NCBI RefSeq assembly: GCF_018499875.1
Contig: NZ_JAHBAY010000013.1
Coordinates: 186,001 to 250,000, forward strand
DNA length: 64,000 bases
Origin: Kineosporia corallincola
GTDB taxonomy: Bacteria > Actinomycetota > Actinomycetes > Actinomycetales > Kineosporiaceae
Direction of reading: 5' to 3'
Shown here: positions 18,330 through 60,796 of the stretch, one piece after another
Numbering within the stretch: position 1 is the stretch's first letter
How the letters are laid out: each line of letters starts with the position of its first letter
Position numbers and translations under genes: made by a program
Notes under the pieces: model-generated
What the model saw: the letters and a program-made list of their open reading frames with translations, nothing else
What the model was told of the DNA's origin: nothing
The model's database searches: none

Positions 18330-19358
18330 ATGAACCGGAAGCCGGCCGGTCGGGCCGTCGTTGTCACCGTCCTTCTCACCACGGCCCTGGCCGCCTGTGG
18401 AAAGAGTGAGAGTGCGGGCAGTGTGCAGGTGGCCGGTGGCGGTGTGACCACGGTGCGCTGGATCTACGACTGGACGCCGACCTCGGCGGACCTGCCCGTG
18501 CTGAAGGGACTGGCGGAGGGCTGGTTCGAGGAGGCCGGGGTGAAGGTCGCCACCACCCCCGGCGGTGCGATCGACCAGCTGGAGTCGGTCGGCGCCGGGA
18601 ACCACGACATGACCGTCGGCGGCGGCGTCGAGCTCCTGGTCGACCAGGCCCGCGGTCTGCCGGTGAAGTCGGTCGGGCTGGTGCAGCCGGTGGCCCTGGG
18701 CGGTCTGGTCTGCAACCCCGACTCGGGGGTCAAGGACGGGGTACCGAAGACGCTGCTGGACCGGAAGCTGGCCACCGCGAGCTCCGACGCCGACGACGTG
18801 GTCTGGCAGATCTGGCGCGACCGGAACCAGCTCACCGGCAAGGTCACCGAGGTCTCCGCCGAGGCCGGGCCGGATCTGCTGTATCAGGGCGTCGTCGACT
18901 GCTTCCCGGACTTCCTCACCCTGGCCCCGCTGGAGGCGGAGAAGGAGTTCGGCGAGGCGCCGGTGCTCGTGCCGTACTCGAAGGAGCTCGGCGTGATCGG
19001 CCAGGTGCTCGACGTCAACACCGACTTCGCCCAGAAGAACCCTCAGGCGGTGCGGGCTTTCGTGGACGTCTACGCGCGCGGCATGGAGTGGGCCGCGAGT
19101 CACCAGGCCGACGCCGTGAAGCTGATGAAGAAGACCTACCCGGACATCGACGAGAAAATCACGGCCCAGGAACTGAAGTCGCTGGCCGGGTACTGGGCCG
19201 GCGGCTTCCAGCGGAAGAACGGCTACCTGAGCATGAACGACCACTCCTGGGCGGCGACGGTGGACGTGTTGCTCAAGGGCCGGGCGATCGACGAGGCGCC
19301 GGAGATGAGCTCGGTGTACACGACCGAGTACCTACCGTCGACGCCTTACCTGCCCTGA
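18330..19358 (+). CDS. Orphan ABC-type substrate-binding lipoprotein (NMT1/SsuA-like)
   Basis: 342 residues with a signal peptide ending in a lipobox (LAAC, Cys23). The core follows the NMT1/THI5-like or SsuA-like solute-binding fold: WIYDWTPTSADLPVLKGLAEGWF, then an SVGAGNHDMTVGGGVELL segment. Binding proteins of this group carry thiamine precursors, sulfonates or nitrate-like ligands. No permease or ATPase gene is adjacent, so its transporter is elsewhere or it has another role. Confidence 0.8.
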   Translation: MNRKPAGRAVVVTVLLTTALAACGKSESAGSVQVAGGGVTTVRWIYDWTPTSADLPVLKGLAEGWFEEAGVKVATTPGGAIDQLESVGAGNHDMTVGGGVELLVDQARGLPVKSVGLVQPVALGGLVCNPDSGVKDGVPKTLLDRKLATASSDADDVVWQIWRDRNQLTGKVTEVSAEAGPDLLYQGVVDCFPDFLTLAPLEAEKEFGEAPVLVPYSKELGVIGQVLDVNTDFAQKNPQAVRAFVDVYARGMEWAASHQADAVKLMKKTYPDIDEKITAQELKSLAGYWAGGFQRKNGYLSMNDHSWAATVDVLLKGRAIDEAPEMSSVYTTEYLPSTPYLP

Positions 19359-19593: not shown

Positions 19594-20502
19594 ATGCCTC
19601 ATGTCGTCGTCATCAACCCGACCAGCTCGGCGGAGATCACCGCGGGAATCCAGGCGTCGCTGGACCAGACGGCCCAGCTGTGGGGTGTCACCGCCACCGC
19701 CGTCACCTCGTACGGCGGGCCCCGGGTGATCGAGTCGGACGACGACGCCCGGGTCGCGCTCAACCCGATGCTGGCCACCGCGGGGCAGCACCGGGCCGAC
19801 GCCTACGTGGTGGGCTGTTTCTCCGACGTCGGGGTGGACGAGCTGCGGGCCGCCGCCCCGGTGCCGGTGATCGGGATCGCCGAGGCCGCGCTGCTCTCGG
19901 CCATGGCCCACTCCCGGCGCATCGGTGTGGTGAGCACCCTGCCGATGGCGACCTTCCGGCACGAGCTGTACTGGGCCCGGCTGGGGGTGAGCGGCCGGGT
20001 GGTCGCCGACCTGGCGATCGGGCGCGGCTCGCTGGACCTGAACGGGCGTGACGCCGCGAACGCCGTGCTCACGGCCGCCCGGGAACTCACCGGGCGGCGG
20101 GGGGCCGAGGCGGTCATCCTGGGCAGCGCCGGGCTGGCCCATCTGCGGGACCCGCTGGCCGACGAGCTCGGGGTGCCGGTGATCGAGCCGTGTGCCGCCG
20201 GGCTGGCGATGGCTGCCCAGGCCCTGGCCGACTTCCCGCGGCTGACGCGCACCCCCGCCGCACCACCCGCGCCCGCGGCGCTGCCGGCCGCGGAGCCGCA
20301 GTATGCGCCGAGCTACTCCCAGGACTACGGGTCCCAGGGGTACGGGTCGCAGGGGTACGGGTCGCAGGGGTACGGGCAGGAGCCCGCCCGTGAGTACGGG
20401 TCCGGCACGCCGGGGCACGGCACGCCCGGCTACAGCACGCCCGGTTACGGCACCCCGGGACACGGCCGGCCGCAGTACGGTTCGCGGCAGGTCCACCAGT
20501 GA
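19594..20502 (+). CDS. Asp/Glu/hydantoin racemase-fold protein with low-complexity YGSQ/PGYGT tail
   Basis: 302 residues. Residues ~1-215 follow the hydantoin/Asp-Glu racemase fold: VVVINPTSS at the N-terminus and a first cysteine in VVGCFSDVGVDEL. At the second catalytic position the usual Cys is Ser (VILGSAGLAHL), so two-base racemisation is doubtful. After a Pro/Ala linker the last ~60 residues are repeats of YGSQG and TPGYG/TPGHG, a prion-like, disordered composition unusual for this family. ATG 19594 follows an unremarkable leader; 19359-19593 holds no other gene. Confidence 0.75.
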   Translation: MPHVVVINPTSSAEITAGIQASLDQTAQLWGVTATAVTSYGGPRVIESDDDARVALNPMLATAGQHRADAYVVGCFSDVGVDELRAAAPVPVIGIAEAALLSAMAHSRRIGVVSTLPMATFRHELYWARLGVSGRVVADLAIGRGSLDLNGRDAANAVLTAARELTGRRGAEAVILGSAGLAHLRDPLADELGVPVIEPCAAGLAMAAQALADFPRLTRTPAAPPAPAALPAAEPQYAPSYSQDYGSQGYGSQGYGSQGYGQEPAREYGSGTPGHGTPGYSTPGYGTPGHGRPQYGSRQVHQ

Positions 20503-20583: not shown

Positions 20584-21351
20584 ATGGGTGGATACCTGGT
20601 CGCGGCGGCCACATCGGGCCTCGGGCACGCGATCGCCCGGCAGCTGGTGCTGGCGGGGCACGACGTGTCGATCTGCGGGCGCACCGCCGAGCGCGTCGAG
20701 AAGGCGGTCACGGCGCTGAACGAGGGCGGGGTCAACGGCACCGCCACCGGCCGCCCCGTCGACCTGACCGACGGCGCCGCGGTGACCGGCTGGGTGCGCG
20801 ACGCGGCCTCCCGGTTCGACGGCCTCAACGGCGTGGTGATCAACACCGGCGGCCCGCCGGCCAAGGGCTTCGACGAAACCGATGACGACGACTGGCAGCT
20901 AGGGTTCGACCTGCTCCTGCGCCCGGCGGTGCGGCTGGCCCGGGCGGCCCGGCCGCACCTGATCAAGGGGGAGAGCAGCCTGCTGTTCTGCACCTCCAGC
21001 CAGGTGCGGGAACCGTCCGACGACCTGATCCTGTCCAGCGTGTTCCGCTCCGGCGTGGCCGCCCTGGCCAAGTCGCTGAGCAAGAGCTGGGCACCGGAGG
21101 TGCGGGTGAACCAGCTGATCCCCGGCCGGATCGCGACCGCCCGGGTGGAACAGCTCGACAGCGGCCGGTCGGAGCGCTCCGGGCTGTCGGTCGACCAGAT
21201 CAGGCAGGAGTGGGGCACGAAGATCCCGGCGGGCCGCTACGGCGAGCCGGACGAGTTCGCCGCCGCCGCGGTGTTCCTGCTCTCGCCCGCGGCCTCGTAC
21301 GTGACCGGGGTGAGCCTCCAGGTCGACGGCGGGCTGATGACGGGCATCTGA
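20584..21351 (+). CDS. SDR-family protein lacking the YxxxK catalytic pair
   Basis: 255 residues with an SDR fold: altered cofactor loop AATSGLGHAIA, INTGG in place of NNAG, and the C-terminal YVTGVSLQVDGG. Where YxxxK should stand the protein reads SSVFR, so both Tyr and Lys appear replaced, as in one FabG-like subgroup. It ends 2 nt before the alpha/beta hydrolase, forming an operon. Confidence 0.85.
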   Translation: MGGYLVAAATSGLGHAIARQLVLAGHDVSICGRTAERVEKAVTALNEGGVNGTATGRPVDLTDGAAVTGWVRDAASRFDGLNGVVINTGGPPAKGFDETDDDDWQLGFDLLLRPAVRLARAARPHLIKGESSLLFCTSSQVREPSDDLILSSVFRSGVAALAKSLSKSWAPEVRVNQLIPGRIATARVEQLDSGRSERSGLSVDQIRQEWGTKIPAGRYGEPDEFAAAAVFLLSPAASYVTGVSLQVDGGLMTGI

Positions 21352-21353
21352 TC

Positions 21354-22118
21354 ATGCCGACGCCGCTGATGTCCTTCACCGTGGACGGCGACCGGCAGGC
21401 CCCACCGCTCGTGCTGGGGCCCTCGATCGGCACCTCGGGGCGGGTCTGGTCACCACAGATCCCCGGCCTGGTGCAGGACTTCCGGGTGATCCGCTTCGAC
21501 CTGCCGGGCCACTTCGGCGAGCCCGCCGAGAAGGGGCCCTACACGGTGGCCGGGCTGGCCGAGGGGCTGCTGCGCGGTCTCGACGGGCTGGGCGTGGACA
21601 CCTTCGACTACTGCGGCCTCTCGATGGGCGGGGCGCTGGGGCAGCAGCTCGCGATCGACCACCCGGACCGGGTGAACCGGCTCGTGCTGGTCTGCACCTC
21701 GGCCACTTTCGGCGACAGCCCCCGGCCCTGGCTGGACCGGGCGGACCGGGTGCGGGCCGAGGGCACCGGTTTCCTGCCCGACCTGGCCCGGGGCCGCTGG
21801 TTCGCGCCCGACGTGCCGGTGCCGCCGCTGGGCCGGGAACTGCTCCAGGCCCAGACCGCCCTGGACCCGGAGGGGTACGCGGCCTGCTGCGAGGCCCTGG
21901 CCGCGTTCGACTCCCGCGCGGAGCTGGGCCGGGTGCGCTGCCCCACCCGGGTGGTGGCCGGGGCCGACGACCTGGCCACGCCGGTCGCGTCGGCGCAGGA
22001 GCTGGCCGCCGGCATCCCGGGCGCCGACCTGGTGGTGGTGCCGCAGGCCGCGCACCTGGCCCCGGTCGACCAGCCCGCCGCCGTGCTCCAGGCGATCCGG
22101 CGGCACCTGTTCCGCTGA
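21354..22118 (+). CDS. Alpha/beta hydrolase, 3-oxoadipate enol-lactonase-like
   Basis: 254 residues from ATG 21354. Nucleophile elbow GLSMGG, acid region GADDLATP and the terminal His in AAHLAPVDQP make a complete Ser-Asp-His triad. Overall order and LPGHF, IDHPDRVNRLVLVCTSA resemble PcaD-like lactonases. No other protocatechuate genes are nearby, so the lactone substrate is not assured. Confidence 0.85.
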   Translation: MPTPLMSFTVDGDRQAPPLVLGPSIGTSGRVWSPQIPGLVQDFRVIRFDLPGHFGEPAEKGPYTVAGLAEGLLRGLDGLGVDTFDYCGLSMGGALGQQLAIDHPDRVNRLVLVCTSATFGDSPRPWLDRADRVRAEGTGFLPDLARGRWFAPDVPVPPLGRELLQAQTALDPEGYAACCEALAAFDSRAELGRVRCPTRVVAGADDLATPVASAQELAAGIPGADLVVVPQAAHLAPVDQPAAVLQAIRRHLFR

Positions 22119-25467: not shown

Positions 25468-27888
25468 TTGGTTTCGCAGGAGCCAACGCCGCTCCCGGTC
25501 CGGCCCCGGCTGGACTTCGAGGCGGGCCCGGTCACCGGAGCCACCCTGGCCACCGGCCAGATCCCGGTGATCGACCCGCAGGCCGGGCAGACGATCCAGG
25601 GCCAGCCGGTCGACCCGGCCGCCGAGAGCGGTGACGAGGAACCCGAGAGACAGCCGGAACCGCGGCAGATCGACGACGCCGCGTGGACCGCCAGCCTCAG
25701 GGTGATCGACGATTCCGAATGGGTTTCCGGGGGTGGGACTTCGGGATGGTCGTACCCGCAGATCTTCGATCCGGACCAGCCCGAGGCCGATTCCACCCCG
25801 CCTCTTCCCGGTCCCGGTCCTTCGACCGGCGAGATCCGGATGGCCGCCGAGATGCGCAAGGGCACGGCGGGGGCCCGGCCCCCGCTGGAGCCGGCGCCGC
25901 AGGTCGGTCGTGGCCGTGCCGCTGCTGAGAGTGCTGAGAAGGTTGACCACGGCCGGGTTTCGGCGCCGGCGACCGATCCGGCGAGGCGGCCGGGCGCGCT
26001 GGGCCGCGAGTCTGCGGCTGCGCCTGTTCGCACGGCGGCGGATCCCGCCCCGGCTGCTGAGCCGGGCGTGCAGGCGGCCATTTCGCTGCCTGGTGAAACG
26101 GTCACCGCCCCCAGCGGTATGCCTCTGATCGCTGCGTCGGCCGGTTCCGAGCCCCGAAACGCCCAGCCTCGAACCGCCCAGCCTGGCGGACCTGGGACCG
26201 GCGACACCGATATCCGCGCCACCGGAACGGGAAGCACCGCCACCACTGGCCGCCGCGCCGACAGGGCGCCCACCATCGGCGGCCCGAGTATTGGTGTCTC
26301 GGGTGCCGGTGCCTCGGGTGTCGGTGGCTGGGGTGTTGGTGTCTCGGGTGTCGGTGGCCCGAGTGTTGGTGGCCCGGGTGTCGGTGCCCCGAGCGTTGGC
26401 GGCCTCGCCGGCGGTATCCCCACCAGCGGTGCCCCCGCTACGAGCGCTCCCGAGGCGGTGGCGCTTGATGCGGCCCGCAGCAGCGCCACCTCCGGCAGCG
26501 ACTCGGTCGGCAACCCTGCTACCGGTAGCGCCCCGGCCGGCAATCTCACCACCGGCAATCCCGCCACCGGCAGCCCCGCCACCGGCAGCCCCGCCACCAC
26601 GGGCCCGGTGACGAATCCACGAGGTGTTTCGTCGTCCAGGATGTCCGGGCCGCCGACCGCCCCCACCACTGTGCTGCCGCTGCGGCGAGAGATTCGCCAG
26701 AAGCATCCTGACCCGCCGTTGCGGCGTTCGCGGTTCAAGATCCTGGTGCGGGTGCTGCGGGGAGCACTGGGGCGTCGGCGTCCTCGCCCGCACCGGGGCG
26801 GGGCCGACCCGAAAACCCTTGGCACGCGGTTCAAGTCCAAGGAGAATCATTTAGGCCTGATCCGACTGGTACTCGCACTGGCCGTCGGGGTCACGCACGC
26901 CACCCAGATCGGGTACGGCTGGCAGCCGGGGTTCGCTCACACTGGGCTCGGTGACCTCTGCGTCGACGGGTTCTTCGTGCTCAGCGGCTTCCTGCTGGTC
27001 GGCAGCTACCTGCGGCTCGACTCGGTGCGCCGCTACGCCTGGCACCGATTCCTCCGCATCATGCCCGGCTTCTGGGTCTGCCTGGTGGTCAGTGCCACCA
27101 TGCTGGCCCCGCTGATCGCCTGGGTCCAGGGCGTCCCGATGAGAACCCTGATCACCGGCCAGGACTCGTCGTTCGACTATGTCGTCCGCAACGCCGCGCT
27201 GATGATGCGGCAGTGGGGGATCAGCGGCCTGCCCAGCGACGTGGAGATGGCCGGCGTGCTGAACGGCTCGCTGTGGACGCTGTTCTACGAGGCCGCCTGC
27301 TACGCCTCGATCATCGCCCTCGGCGTGTTCGGCGGCCTGCGCCGCCGCCCGGTGATGACCCTCGGCGCGGTCGGCGCCCTCTGGGTGGTCACCGTGCTGA
27401 ACGACTACGGCATCCTGTATCTCGGCCAGGAGCGGATCATCCGGCTGGCCTTCATGTTCCTGATCGGCTCGGTGCTCTACCTGTACGCCCACCACGTGCC
27501 GGTGAACCGCTGGCTGACCCTGGCCTCGGCGGCCCTGGTGGTGGCCGGGATCGTGTTCTTCGAGGACTACCGGGTGCTCGCCGGGCCGGCCTTCGGCTAC
27601 CTGTGCCTGGCCCTCGCCGTCTCCCGGGTGCGGGTGCCCGAGCCGCGCACCGACATCTCGTACGGCCTCTACGTCTACCACTGGCCGTTGCTCCAGGTGT
27701 TCAACCTGGTCGGCGTATCCGCCTACGGCATCTGGGTCTTCGCGCCCGCCGGGCTGGCCGCCGCCTCGGTGGTGGCCCTGCTCAGCTGGAAGCTGGTCGA
27801 GAAACCGGCCCTGGGCTTCAAGGACGCCGGATGGGTCACCTGGAAGCTACCGGTGCCCCGGCCGGTCACCTCGTCGCAGACCACCTGA
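25468..27888 (+). CDS. Membrane acyltransferase (Acyltransferase_3) with ~450-residue disordered N-terminus
   Basis: 806 residues. From about residue 461 it is a typical Acyltransferase_3/OafA-type ten-helix domain (RLVLALAVGVTHATQIGYG with the family His, then VDGFFVLSGFLLVGSYLRL, HRFLRIMPGFWVCL, YGLYVYHWPLLQ). Such enzymes O-acylate sugars or lipids in the envelope. The N-terminal half is Pro/Gly/Thr-rich with short repeats (VSGVGGPSVGG; TGNPATGSPATG) and no domain I recognise. TTG 25468 follows GGGGAGAGG. Acceptor unknown. Confidence 0.82.
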   Translation: MVSQEPTPLPVRPRLDFEAGPVTGATLATGQIPVIDPQAGQTIQGQPVDPAAESGDEEPERQPEPRQIDDAAWTASLRVIDDSEWVSGGGTSGWSYPQIFDPDQPEADSTPPLPGPGPSTGEIRMAAEMRKGTAGARPPLEPAPQVGRGRAAAESAEKVDHGRVSAPATDPARRPGALGRESAAAPVRTAADPAPAAEPGVQAAISLPGETVTAPSGMPLIAASAGSEPRNAQPRTAQPGGPGTGDTDIRATGTGSTATTGRRADRAPTIGGPSIGVSGAGASGVGGWGVGVSGVGGPSVGGPGVGAPSVGGLAGGIPTSGAPATSAPEAVALDAARSSATSGSDSVGNPATGSAPAGNLTTGNPATGSPATGSPATTGPVTNPRGVSSSRMSGPPTAPTTVLPLRREIRQKHPDPPLRRSRFKILVRVLRGALGRRRPRPHRGGADPKTLGTRFKSKENHLGLIRLVLALAVGVTHATQIGYGWQPGFAHTGLGDLCVDGFFVLSGFLLVGSYLRLDSVRRYAWHRFLRIMPGFWVCLVVSATMLAPLIAWVQGVPMRTLITGQDSSFDYVVRNAALMMRQWGISGLPSDVEMAGVLNGSLWTLFYEAACYASIIALGVFGGLRRRPVMTLGAVGALWVVTVLNDYGILYLGQERIIRLAFMFLIGSVLYLYAHHVPVNRWLTLASAALVVAGIVFFEDYRVLAGPAFGYLCLALAVSRVRVPEPRTDISYGLYVYHWPLLQVFNLVGVSAYGIWVFAPAGLAAASVVALLSWKLVEKPALGFKDAGWVTWKLPVPRPVTSSQTT

Positions 27889-33461: not shown

Positions 33462-34667
33462 TCAGGGGGAAATTGGATCTTCGCGACCGGACAATTCCGT
33501 CATGTCCCGCAGGCGCCCCGCGAATTCACGCATCCGGTCGCGCAGTTGCGGTGGCTCCTCCAGCACGAACGGCAGGTCCAGCCCGGCGATCAGGGCCGGC
33601 ACCCAGTCCAGCCGCTCGGCATTGAGTCGCACCCGTACCTCGCCCACCTCAGCCGCCTTGCCCGCCTCAGCCGCCTTGCCCGCCTCAGCCGCCTTGCCGG
33701 CCTCGCCGCCGGGCAGCGCCTCGCCGCCGGGCAGTGGCTCGACGATCGCCAGGCCGAGGGGTAGGCGCCGCCTCACGGTCTCCGCCTCGCCGCGCACCCG
33801 GAACACCACCCGGTGCTGCCAGGGGGTGGCGGCCAGGGAACGCAGCACGGCGCCGGCGGGGTCGGAGGCGGTGTCTGGGCCGGTGGCGGTGGCGGTGGCG
33901 GTGTCTGGGTCGGTAGCGGTGCCGGTCGGTGCGTTGCGGGCGCTTGCGGCCCGGCGGTCCCGGACCACGGTGGTGGCCTCGGGGGCGGCGGTTCTCGGGG
34001 CGGCGGTTCTCGGGGTGATGGCCTCCGGGGTGGTGACGGCCTGGGCGTGGGTGATGCGGTCCAGGCGGAAGGTGCGGGGTTCGCCGACAGCCAGGTCGGT
34101 GGCGGTCAGGTACCAGTGGCCCGCGTGGGCGACGATTCCGCCGGGCCGGACGGCCCGCACACTCGCCCGCCCGTGCCGGTCCAGATACCCGATTTCGGTG
34201 GGTCGTCCTTCGTGCGTACAGGTGGCGAGGGTCAGCAGCACGGCCAGGTCGGCATCGGCCGGATCCCGTGCCGGGGTGGTGAAAGACACCGTGGCGAGCA
34301 GGGCTTCGAGCCGGGGGCGCAGCGTCGCGGGCAGTACCCGGCGCAGTTTGGCCAGCGCGCCGGCCGAGGCGGACGAGCGGGGCAGCAGCCCGGCCCGGTC
34401 GCCCACCACCAGCCCGACCAGCACGGCCGCGGCCTCGTCGTCGGTGAGCATCAGCGGTGGCATGCGGTAGCCGGGCGCCAGGTGGTAGCCGCCGTAGCGT
34501 CCTCGCACCGACGTCACCGGGATGCCGAGGTCGAGCAGGTGCTGCACGTAACGACGCACGGTGCGCTCGTCCACACCCAGGCGGTCGGCCAGGTCGGCCA
34601 CCCGCCGGGTGCCACCGGCCTGGAGCATCTCCAGCAGGGCGAGCACGCGCGAGGTGGGCCGGGTCAC
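33462..34667 (-). CDS. HTH-WYL (YafY-type) transcription regulator with repeat insertions
   Basis: 401 residues, GTG start. N-terminal HTH_11 (RVLALLEMLQAGGTRRVADLADRLGVDERTVRRYV), then the conserved SVRGRYGGYHLAPGYRMPPLMLT and a WYL-like sensor domain (RPGGIVAHAGHWYLTATDL). The C-terminal part is interrupted by Ala/Thr/Pro-rich low complexity (~residues 215-265) and by a GKAAEA run repeated three times (coded near 33650-33700), which makes it longer than the usual ~320 residues. Divergent from a VOC gene it may control. Confidence 0.88.
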   Translation of the reverse strand: MTRPTSRVLALLEMLQAGGTRRVADLADRLGVDERTVRRYVQHLLDLGIPVTSVRGRYGGYHLAPGYRMPPLMLTDDEAAAVLVGLVVGDRAGLLPRSSASAGALAKLRRVLPATLRPRLEALLATVSFTTPARDPADADLAVLLTLATCTHEGRPTEIGYLDRHGRASVRAVRPGGIVAHAGHWYLTATDLAVGEPRTFRLDRITHAQAVTTPEAITPRTAAPRTAAPEATTVVRDRRAASARNAPTGTATDPDTATATATGPDTASDPAGAVLRSLAATPWQHRVVFRVRGEAETVRRRLPLGLAIVEPLPGGEALPGGEAGKAAEAGKAAEAGKAAEVGEVRVRLNAERLDWVPALIAGLDLPFVLEEPPQLRDRMREFAGRLRDMTELSGREDPISP

Positions 34668-58504: not shown

Positions 58505-59959
58505 TCAGGCACCCACCGGCCGGGCCGCCAGTCGCAGTTGCTCCAGCACCGCCTCCACGGCGGGCACGCCGTGGCTGCTCGGCGCCAGCACGGCCGACAC
58601 CGTACGTGCCGGGTAGTCTTCCAGGGGAAGCACTTTCACGGCCGGATTGAGGCTTGCCGCCAGTGCCATGCCGGGCAGGGTAGCTACCGCGATCCCGGCC
58701 GCCACCAGGGCCTGCACCACCACGTAGTCGTCAGTGCTGTGCCGGATGTCGGGCGTGAAACCGGCTTTCACCGCCTCCCGCACGAGATGCTTGCGGCACG
58801 AGACACATCCGGCGATCCAGCGCTGCCCGGCCAGGTCGGTCAGGGTGACCGACTCCCGCCCGGCCAGGGCGTGCCCCGGCCCCAGCACGGCCCGCAGCGG
58901 GTCGCGCAGCAGCTTCACGGCCTCCAGCGGGCCGCGCTCGAAATCCTCACCCGGGTAGTCGAACACGATCGCCAGGTCGCACTGACCCTCGGCCAGCAGC
59001 ACCAGTGCCTCGGGCGGCTCGACCTGGGTCAGGCGCACGTCCAGGCCCGGGTGCTCGGAGCTCAGGTTCATCAGGGCGGTCGAGACCAGGGTGGCGCTCG
59101 CGGACGGGAACGCCGCGATCCGCACCCGTCCGGTGCGGCGGCGGGCCAGGTCGGCCAGGGCCTCGCCCGCCGCCTCCAGCCGGGCGTCGATGGCGTCGGC
59201 GTGGCGCAGCAGCAGCTGGCCCGGATCGGTGAGCGCGATGCCGCGCCCGACCCGGGTGATCAGGGCCAGGCCGAGATCCTTCTCCAGCTTGCGGATGTGC
59301 TGGCTGACCGCGGGCTGGGTCCAGCCCAGGGTGCGGGCGGCCGCGGCCATCGAGCCGGAGTGCGCCACCTCGCGGAACACCAGCAGGCGTCGTGGGTCCA
59401 GCCGGGCGGTGGCCGTTCCCTCGGCCAGCACCGGGCGGTCGGGGACGTCGGTGGCGGCTTCGCCGGTCCCCTCGCCCTCGTCGGGGTCGTGGGGTTCGAG
59501 CGGCTCGGCGATCCCGTCGGCCGGCGCCGCGGTTCTGGTGGCAGCAGTTCTGGCTGTCGTGCCCTCGGTCACCGTGCCTCCCGTCTCTACCGTTGCGGCG
59601 CCCTCTCCGGTCTTTCCGGTCACCTTGCTGTTACCTGACTGCCCGTGTGTTCCCGTTTCGGTCCGGTGCTGCGGTGCATCGCCGACCTGGCCCGCCGACC
59701 TGACCGCCCCCGGCCCGGTGCCCGACCTCGGCACTCGGCCTGCGCCCGTCGCGCCGGCCCCGAGAACGGTCTCCTCCGGTCCCTCGACGGCCGGGATCGT
59801 CCTGGTCAGCCGCTGGGTGGGGCGTTCGGACGCCGGATGCGCGACAGCGTGGCGCGGAGCCCGGCCACCGGCCCAGGCCGTGCCCGCCTCCGGGTCCGGC
59901 ACGGCGTGGATGTGGGCTGCGGGCTTCTCGTCGTCCCCAATTGCTGCCATGGGACCCAT
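58505..59959 (-). CDS. LysR-family regulator with a ~175-residue disordered N-terminal extension
   Basis: 484 residues from ATG 59959 (GGAGG upstream). The canonical LysR HTH begins only near residue 188 (RLLVFREVAHSGSMAAAARTLGWTQPAVSQHIRKLEKDLGL), followed by the full effector domain (GRVRIAAFPSASATLV, DDYVVVQALVAAGIAVATLPGMALA). The extension is rich in Gly, Thr, Pro, Glu and has no cysteine or helix pattern I recognise. Divergent from an Asp/Glu racemase gene that it probably controls. Confidence 0.87.
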   Translation of the reverse strand: MGPMAAIGDDEKPAAHIHAVPDPEAGTAWAGGRAPRHAVAHPASERPTQRLTRTIPAVEGPEETVLGAGATGAGRVPRSGTGPGAVRSAGQVGDAPQHRTETGTHGQSGNSKVTGKTGEGAATVETGGTVTEGTTARTAATRTAAPADGIAEPLEPHDPDEGEGTGEAATDVPDRPVLAEGTATARLDPRRLLVFREVAHSGSMAAAARTLGWTQPAVSQHIRKLEKDLGLALITRVGRGIALTDPGQLLLRHADAIDARLEAAGEALADLARRRTGRVRIAAFPSASATLVSTALMNLSSEHPGLDVRLTQVEPPEALVLLAEGQCDLAIVFDYPGEDFERGPLEAVKLLRDPLRAVLGPGHALAGRESVTLTDLAGQRWIAGCVSCRKHLVREAVKAGFTPDIRHSTDDYVVVQALVAAGIAVATLPGMALAASLNPAVKVLPLEDYPARTVSAVLAPSSHGVPAVEAVLEQLRLAARPVGA

Positions 59960-59984
59960 TGAGCCACACCTCCGACAGAAGACA

Positions 59985-59995
59985 AAGCTGAGCTT
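59985..59995. promoter_or_regulatory. Candidate LysR half-site palindrome
   Basis: AAGCT-G-AGCTT, perfect 5-bp arms, in the 129-nt gap between the divergent LysR and racemase starts, 25 nt from the LysR start. Confidence 0.3.
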
Positions 59996-60088
59996 GGGGA
60001 ATCCTCCGACCAAGTCGTTCTTGCGGCACCTTCAAAGGTTGCGGAACTGTGAAAGCGGTCAAGGACGGCGCGCTTGAAGGAGACGGAC

Positions 60089-60796
60089 ATGCTGACGATC
60101 GGTTTGCTCGGTGGGATGAGCTGGCAGTCGACGGTGGAGTACTACCGGATCGCGAACGAGATGGTGGCCCAGCGGCTCGGCGGTCTGCACTCGGCCAAGC
60201 TCGTGATGACGTCCGTCGACTTCGCCGAGATCGGCAAGCTCCAGCGGGCCGGCCGGTGGGACGAGGCCGGCCGGGTGCTCGCCCGGGAGGCCAAGGGGCT
60301 GGAGGCGGCCGGCGCCGACATGGTGCTGATCTGCACGAACACCATGCACAAGGTGGCCGACGCGGTTGCCGGTGCGATCAGCGTGCCGCTGCTGCACCTG
60401 GCCGACACCACCGCCGGTGCGGTGCGTGGCGCGGGCGTGCGCAAGGTCGCCCTGCTCGGCACCGCGTTCACCATGGAGCAGGACTTCTACAAGGAGCGTC
60501 TGGCCACCCAGGGCCTGGAGGTGCTCGTGCCGTCGGCCGAGGACCGCGCCGTGGTGCACCGGGTGATCTTCGAGGAGCTGTGCGTCGGCATCATCAAGGA
60601 GGAGTCGCGCCAGGCCTACCGCGACATCATCGCCGGTCTGGTGGCCCAGGGAGCCGAGGGCGTGATCCTCGGCTGCACCGAGATCGAACTGCTGATTTCC
60701 CAGGCGGACAGCGCGGTTCCGGTGTTCCCGACCACGCGCCTGCACATCGAGGCCGCGGTGGAGAAGGCCCTCGTGCCGGAGCCGGCCCTGGTCTGA
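60089..60796 (+). CDS. Aspartate/glutamate racemase-family enzyme
   Basis: 235 residues from ATG 60089 (AAGGAG 6 nt upstream). LGGMSWQSTVEYYRIAN opens the fold, and both catalytic cysteines are present (LICTNTMHKVAD and VILGCTEIELLI), in contrast to the racemase-like protein at 19594. Belongs to the YgeA/aspartate-racemase group of broad amino-acid racemases. Confidence 0.92.
   Translation: MLTIGLLGGMSWQSTVEYYRIANEMVAQRLGGLHSAKLVMTSVDFAEIGKLQRAGRWDEAGRVLAREAKGLEAAGADMVLICTNTMHKVADAVAGAISVPLLHLADTTAGAVRGAGVRKVALLGTAFTMEQDFYKERLATQGLEVLVPSAEDRAVVHRVIFEELCVGIIKEESRQAYRDIIAGLVAQGAEGVILGCTEIELLISQADSAVPVFPTTRLHIEAAVEKALVPEPALV

Follow-up and report, generated by a model that had tools for sequence, protein, structure and literature searches.

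A racemase-fold protein of Kineosporia with a single catalytic cysteine and a tyrosine-rich disordered tail

We analyzed a 64,000-nucleotide stretch of the Kineosporia corallincola genome (RefSeq assembly GCF_018499875.1, contig NZ_JAHBAY010000013.1, positions 186,001 to 250,000; hereafter the window) and in particular a gene encoding a racemase-fold core followed by a tyrosine-rich tail (Table 1). The gene order at the locus is pyridine-nucleotide oxidoreductase, NMT1-type substrate-binding protein, racemase-fold gene, short-chain dehydrogenase, alpha/beta hydrolase, PhoU-like protein and phosphate permease; the oxidoreductase was assigned by Pfam and is ferredoxin reductase-like by eye, and the last two were named by eye only. 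The oxidoreductase and the hydrolase stand beside the gene in all six Kineosporia species compared, the NMT1-type protein and the dehydrogenase in every species except K. babensis, where both are absent, and the PhoU-like protein and the permease are nearby in four, within the stretch read. The chromosomal place of the gene is stable; as a clue to a pathway, it is not decisive.

Table 1. Features of the racemase-fold locus, in window coordinates
Feature	Position	Strand	Basis
NMT1-type substrate-binding protein, upstream neighbor	18330..19358	+	Pfam; adjoins gene in 5/6 species
Whole gene, racemase-fold core and disordered tail	19594..20502	+	ORF, ATG start, 302 aa
Asp/Glu/hydantoin racemase-fold core, residues 1-213	19594..20232	+	PF01177, pLDDT, structure match
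Codon of Thr10, replaces third residue of NPN motif	19621..19623	+	Thr in 6/6 Kineosporia
Codon of Cys75 (TGT), first catalytic cysteine, retained	19816..19818	+	Orthologue comparison
Codon of Ser178 (AGC), replaces second catalytic Cys	20125..20127	+	Orthologue comparison
Disordered Tyr-rich tail, residues 214-302 (89 aa, 10 Tyr)	20233..20499	+	pLDDT 42-68, composition
15-nt tandem array, GSQGY-type repeats	20317..20376	+	4 copies, 93% matches, in frame
Second 15-nt tandem array, GTPGY/GTPGH-type repeats	20403..20466	+	79% matches, in frame
Short-chain dehydrogenase, downstream neighbor	20584..21351	+	Pfam; adjoins gene in 5/6 species
Alpha/beta hydrolase, downstream neighbor	21351..22118 (start approximate)	+	Pfam; 6/6 species

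The window protein matches the Pfam profile PF01177 (Asp_Glu_race) over residues 4-207 and profile positions 1-211 of 211 with 149.6 bits (cut-off 31), and by this whole-domain score it is a member of the superfamily; no NCBIfam family matched it at E up to 0.001. The closest solved structures by sequence are those of the Klebsiella allantoin racemase (3qvj, E 1.9e-14, 30% identity; 3qvk, E 1.4e-13), and the Pyrococcus hydantoin racemase 2eq5 comes next. In the AlphaFold model (23 aligned sequences), residues 1-210 have a block-mean pLDDT of 90-98, which falls to 42-68 in the remainder. The model matches allantoin racemases with Z scores of 31.6-32.4 and the G74C/C188S double mutant of the decarboxylase AMDase (3ixl) with a Z score of 19.6, at 16% sequence identity. 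Fold and overall similarity, with the best PDB matches in both sequence and structure, place the protein among the allantoin/hydantoin racemases, in agreement with the racemase fold proposed in a preliminary description of this DNA. Altogether, the gene is real and its core is closest to the allantoin racemases.

We searched 13 genomes for the family, six of them from Kineosporia (window genome included). An orthologue was recovered in each of these six, the other five being 79-85% identical to the window protein (K. rhizophila 85%, K. mesophila 83%, K. babensis 79%; the remaining two genomes are designated G008 and G009); none was found in the seven non-Kineosporia genomes of this search, two of which have a distant match. 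The window protein does not have the two catalytic cysteines of the allantoin/hydantoin racemases. Every one of the six orthologues has exactly one of them, never both and never none: positions 75/178 are Cys/Ser in K. corallincola, K. rhizophila and K. babensis, Thr/Cys in K. mesophila and G008, and Ser/Cys in G009. The codons are AGC, AGT and AGC for the three Ser178 residues, TGT, TGT and TGC for the three Cys178 residues, and ACC, ACC and TCC at position 75 where Cys has been lost. The replacement of the second catalytic cysteine by Ser, noticed in the preliminary description, is thus there in the window protein, and it is combined with a tail in K. rhizophila and K. babensis as well, but the other three orthologues have a tail, keep Cys178 and have lost the first cysteine instead. 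On the sequences compared, what the orthologues have in common is a single catalytic cysteine and not a C-to-S change at the second one.

Outside Kineosporia, Cys75 and Cys178 are both present in 77 of 77 relatives, a count biased upwards for Cys75 because one of the six patterns of the underlying scan includes that residue (position 178 is in none of them), and made up of relatives that are not independent because many are related Acetobacteraceae. These 77 come from among the 80 best of the 112 relatives in the pattern scan, and were obtained from 96 rows by removing 5 duplicates, 8 distant Kineosporiaceae rows (six two-cysteine paralogues and two loci of another genus) and 6 Kineosporia rows counted apart. 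In a pattern-free protein search of 394 genomes from the class, 22 (window genome included) match at E up to 1e-18; the 21 loci from the other genomes, with one locus from an order search, make up a more distant sample of class and order members, and all 22 have a Cys/Cys dyad. One relative outside the genus (L007, 53% identity) has two cysteines and no tail; from such tailless two-cysteine relatives, both the single cysteine and the tail look derived in Kineosporia. Two loci from another genus of the same family (L090 and L091, in genomes G010 and G012; 30-31% identity) show a Gly75/Cys178, AMDase-like arrangement and are without the Kineosporia tail. All six Kineosporia species also have a separate two-cysteine paralogue, once per genome. 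The window contains a second PF01177 protein at 60074-60796 (+ strand, 146.8 bits), of the aspartate-racemase type by eye with CTNT and GCTE loops, adjoined by a LysR-type regulator at 58505-60013 (- strand).

The cysteines are not the only active-site positions that differ. Position 10 is Thr in all six Kineosporia orthologues vs Asn in 77/77 outside relatives and in 22/22 class and order members, so that the N-terminal NPN motif, defined here by conservation among the relatives examined and not by a published criterion, reads NPT in Kineosporia and NPN in the 77. In the PDB alignment, whose entry numbering is shifted by 2, this position aligns with Asn12 of the Klebsiella enzyme KpAllR, and Ser114/Thr115 align with its Thr118/Thr119; Asn12, Thr118 and Thr119 are all named as pocket residues (PMC12661438). 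Position 79 is Val, Thr or Ala in the six orthologues vs Pro in the 77 relatives; among the 22 class and order members, 20 have Pro there and two have Thr. Asp78 is replaced by Glu in two orthologues, Ser77 by Gln in one and Cys200 by Thr in one; all six retain Gly94, Arg122, Gly177 and Gly180. Pairwise dN/dS values for the 210-residue core are 0.07-0.29 (15 pairs, simple NG86 counts), and the neighbors have means of 0.07 (permease), 0.14 (dehydrogenase), 0.16 (PhoU-like protein), 0.23 (ferredoxin reductase-like protein), 0.38 (hydrolase) and 0.49 (binding protein). Purifying selection thus acts on the core about as strongly as on a middling neighbor, and the gene is not a decaying pseudogene.

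In a protein tree computed without the two catalytic columns, the Cys178-keeping orthologues form a clade (99/96) nested inside a Cys75/Ser178 grade, and a tree of codon positions 1+2 without the catalytic codons gives the same nesting but another branching order within it. A constraint that unites the three Ser178 species is not rejected (p-AU 0.166 and 0.108). Two scenarios therefore stand, by hand-made parsimony on cysteine gain and loss: two independent losses from a Cys/Cys ancestor, or a loss of Cys178 followed by its regain and the loss of Cys75. Opposite losses in two independent lineages are expected by chance half the time. G009 groups with the Ser178 species in an rpoB+gyrA tree (support 94) vs with K. 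mesophila and G008 in the gene tree, where the species-tree grouping is disfavored when forced (p-AU 0.034); in a tree of five neighboring genes the K. mesophila/G008/G009 group has a support of 36. This conflict over G009 (L102 vs L099-L101 and L103) hints that the racemase-like gene could have been exchanged within Kineosporia.

As the preliminary description had it, the tail is of low complexity: composition and the low pLDDT beyond residue 210, not a prion-propensity score, define it as disordered and Tyr-rich. Among 349 rough gene models, obtained by crude ORF picking and not from a curated gene set over 464 kb (about 5.7%) of the window genome, the last 80 residues of this protein rank first for Tyr (10; the next two have 6). 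All six orthologues have a tail, of 89 residues in the window species, 82 in K. rhizophila, 43 in both K. mesophila and G008, 252 in G009 and 111 in K. babensis. Tyr makes up 11-15% of each tail vs 1.4% of each core, the median Tyr spacing is 5-6, and Trp and Cys are absent from all six tails. Gly and Gln together account for 29% of the tail in the window species vs 8% in K. rhizophila, where Glu and Arg increase, and the Gly/Ser/Gln character is therefore particular to the window species. It has six [GS]Y[GS] motifs vs 1, 0, 0, 2 and 0 in K. rhizophila, K. mesophila, G008, G009 and K. babensis. Calling the tail prion-like, of a YGSQ/PGYGT kind, is consequently apt for the window species and not for the other five; as far as sequences can tell, the property common to the tails is the density and spacing of Tyr. 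The C-terminal ends are alike in four of the six (SEVYQ, SEVYQ, SQVYH, RQVHQ), and this end is possibly a docking motif.

A tailless orthologue with its cysteine restored, the counter-case named in the preliminary description, was not found among the six Kineosporia genomes. The longest C-terminal extension among the 77 outside relatives is 17 residues; class members have 21-48 residues past the match, mostly of the same canonical kind as the ends of the two-cysteine paralogues, whose 26-37 C-terminal residues are unlike the Kineosporia tail. We also considered a remnant of a longer tail downstream of the short-tailed genes of K. mesophila and G008, and ruled it out, as reading about 330 downstream bases in three frames gave no Tyr-rich continuation and no SEVYQ-like end. 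Elsewhere in the window genome, YPQGYP-type repeats occur in a protein some 640 residues long (L120:15578-17500, contig C11) that has no Pfam match at E 0.001, and the window has other dense short tandem repeats, with periods of 6 to 45 nt, at 26276-26404 and 33638-34015.

The reading that we prefer, with a probability of about 0.46, is that these proteins form a genus-specific offshoot of the allantoin/hydantoin racemases, in which a single thiol transfers protons on one side and the tail is multivalent. The two-thiol proton relay would have turned asymmetric in this offshoot: on one face of the pocket the remaining cysteine would act as general acid/base, and the opposite face would carry Ser or Thr. 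Such an enzyme would still be catalytic, and a stereospecific deprotonation or protonation could give a biased isomerization, an elimination or a decarboxylation. By the logic of AMDase, where shifting the cysteine (G74C/C188S or G74C/C188G) inverts enantioselectivity (PMC6563808), the Cys75-keeping and the Cys178-keeping species may act on opposite faces. The Tyr-rich tail could localize the enzyme through weak multivalent self-association or docking. What we observe is the predicted fold, the one-cysteine dyad, N10T and the Tyr-spaced disordered tail in all six species, and purifying selection on the core; together with the pocket alignment, the constancy of tail Tyr and the one-cysteine precedents, these observations argue for the one-sided reading. 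Since a two-cysteine paralogue is present in all six species, the one-cysteine copy would be free to specialize. Moreover, EcL-DER from E. coli, an L-Asp/Glu racemase with a Thr83/Cys197 dyad, is active (PMC8142540, PMC12661438, PMC12838360), as are RacX and AMDase, and the loss of one cysteine thus does not prove that catalysis is lost. Against the one-sided reading stand the even odds of opposite losses by chance and a tail chemistry that varies widely between species. A bolder form of it, in which a single catalytic thiol has been relocated between active-site faces among orthologues, would give mirror-image (enantiocomplementary) one-base enzymes, as engineering has done with AMDase, here with an assembling Tyr-sticker tail; we consider it improbable.

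On the other hand, one would also wonder whether catalysis is gone. The core would then be a pseudoenzyme, a small-molecule binding or dimeric scaffold presenting the Tyr-rich tail, for instance as a ligand-gated assembly or a regulatory protein. This main rival is possible, if on the unlikely side. The loss of Asn10 and Pro79 in all six orthologues, added to the loss of one cysteine by either route, and Asp78 to Glu in two of them, could be active-site decay and count against the one-sided reading. So do, by analogy, the Cys-to-Ser mutants of relatives: EcL-DER C197S is inactive and RacX C193S markedly reduced (PMC12838360), and OpaE keeps 4.8% activity as C90S and 0.3% or less as C199S (PMC12661438), a loss of at least 95% that makes full catalytic loss a serious rival. 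In addition, the natural one-cysteine enzymes EcL-DER, RacX and AMDase, as described in the passages of the papers cited, all retain the second cysteine, whereas the window protein retains the first. Cysteine-shifted AMDase does work, though at a cost in rate: against the corresponding unshifted enzyme, one variant is slower by a factor of 25-65 (PMC6563808). The two-cysteine paralogue could retain the ancestral reaction in every species, and purifying selection on the core is compatible with a scaffold. A decayed site, however, should eventually lose both cysteines, which is seen in none of the six (a small sample), and Gly94, Arg122, Gly177 and Gly180 have remained intact.

Whatever the core does, the tail could be a selectively neutral repeat expansion that arose by DNA slippage and has no role. 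The two 15-nt arrays of the window tail and the variation of length and composition between species speak for it. A 215-residue part of the G009 tail, searched against the genus, does not match the other five orthologue tails, which makes it less likely that the repeats themselves are homologous; apart from itself, its six weak hits, with E values between 2.7e-7 and 8.9e-4, were spread over five of the six genomes, none at a racemase locus. We nevertheless hold this neutral origin to be rather unlikely. Tyr density and spacing are constant in all six tails, the C-terminal end is similar in four, and in a neutral simulation of four of the tails (without K. mesophila and G008; 0.2-0.3 changes per site, point mutation only with slippage left out, a 72% GC equilibrium vs 70% in the window, present tails as ancestors) Tyr dropped to 5.6-9.1% and a premature stop arose in 79-100% of runs. 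This result favors maintenance of the tail.

A third reading, that racemization in both directions has been retained with Ser, Thr or water in place of the missing thiol, is quite improbable. RacX of Halocola ammonii, with Ala79 at the first position and Cys193, is active both ways (PMC12838360). YgeA, which is equated with EcL-DER (PMC12838360), is listed as accepting homoserine in its S and R forms alike (PMC8142540), which by analogy also speaks against strict one-sidedness. However, EcL-DER is reported as L-specific on Asp and Glu (PMC8142540, PMC12838360), the OpaE mutants lose nearly all activity, and for a protein without the second cysteine the passages of the papers cited give no natural active precedent. 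The earlier statement that classical racemization is unlikely is thus a fair prediction, but it has to be set beside the published racemase activity of the one-cysteine members EcL-DER/YgeA and RacX. Finally, an assembly or annotation artefact behind the tail, including the frameshift raised in the preliminary description, can be discarded because the five other Kineosporia assemblies, in each of which the orthologue has its own Tyr-rich tail, in frame and free of stops, make it very unlikely, and one of the six genomes is a single contig.

One-cysteine superfamily members are already known. As far as our searches show, neither the mirror-image dyads within one genus nor the Tyr-spaced tail has been described in open-licence papers. 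In that literature we found no racemase with Tyr-rich low-complexity disorder; by title, the papers on Kineosporia and racemases were unrelated and none of those on Tyr-rich tails concerned a racemase. The six orthologues constitute a natural series for studying what becomes of a two-base racemase when it loses one base, and whether the stereochemistry follows from which cysteine is kept. The tail, whose length and composition change between species while its Tyr density and spacing do not, offers a case in bacteria for testing the conservation of stickers and spacers on the fold of a metabolic enzyme.

Several parallels can be drawn with known systems. The allantoin racemases (KpAllR, 3qvj/3qvk; Pseudomonas AllR, 5lg5/5lfd) and the hydantoin racemase 2eq5 resemble the window protein in fold, core length and catalytic positions (Z 25-32), but they have two cysteines where it has Cys75/Ser178, NPT and a tail; the motif is NPN in 3qvj and 3qvk, the two entries aligned there. 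The tail resembles the Tyr-rich low-complexity domains of eukaryotic condensate proteins in its regular Tyr spacing, its disorder and, in the window species, its Gly/Ser/Gln spacers. This likeness is one of resemblance, and the Kineosporia tails differ in that their spacer chemistry varies between species. The unbalanced Thr/Cys dyad of EcL-DER is the arrangement of K. mesophila and G008 (Thr75/Cys178); the window protein, with Cys first and Ser second, is its mirror in a different branch of the superfamily. EcL-DER is not known to have a tail. RacX has one cysteine like the window protein, but belongs to the amino-acid racemase branch and retains the second one. AMDase has Gly74/Cys188, with Cys188 as sole proton donor (PMC4996985). 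Membership of the window protein in that family is ruled out by its Cys-first, Ser-second order and by its loops, which read VVGCFSDV and VILGSAGL vs the AMDase motifs LMGTSLSF and ILLSCGGL (PMC4996985). AMDase nevertheless shares with it a single acid/base cysteine, and the engineered double mutant 3ixl has the same arrangement of Cys at the first position and Ser at the second.
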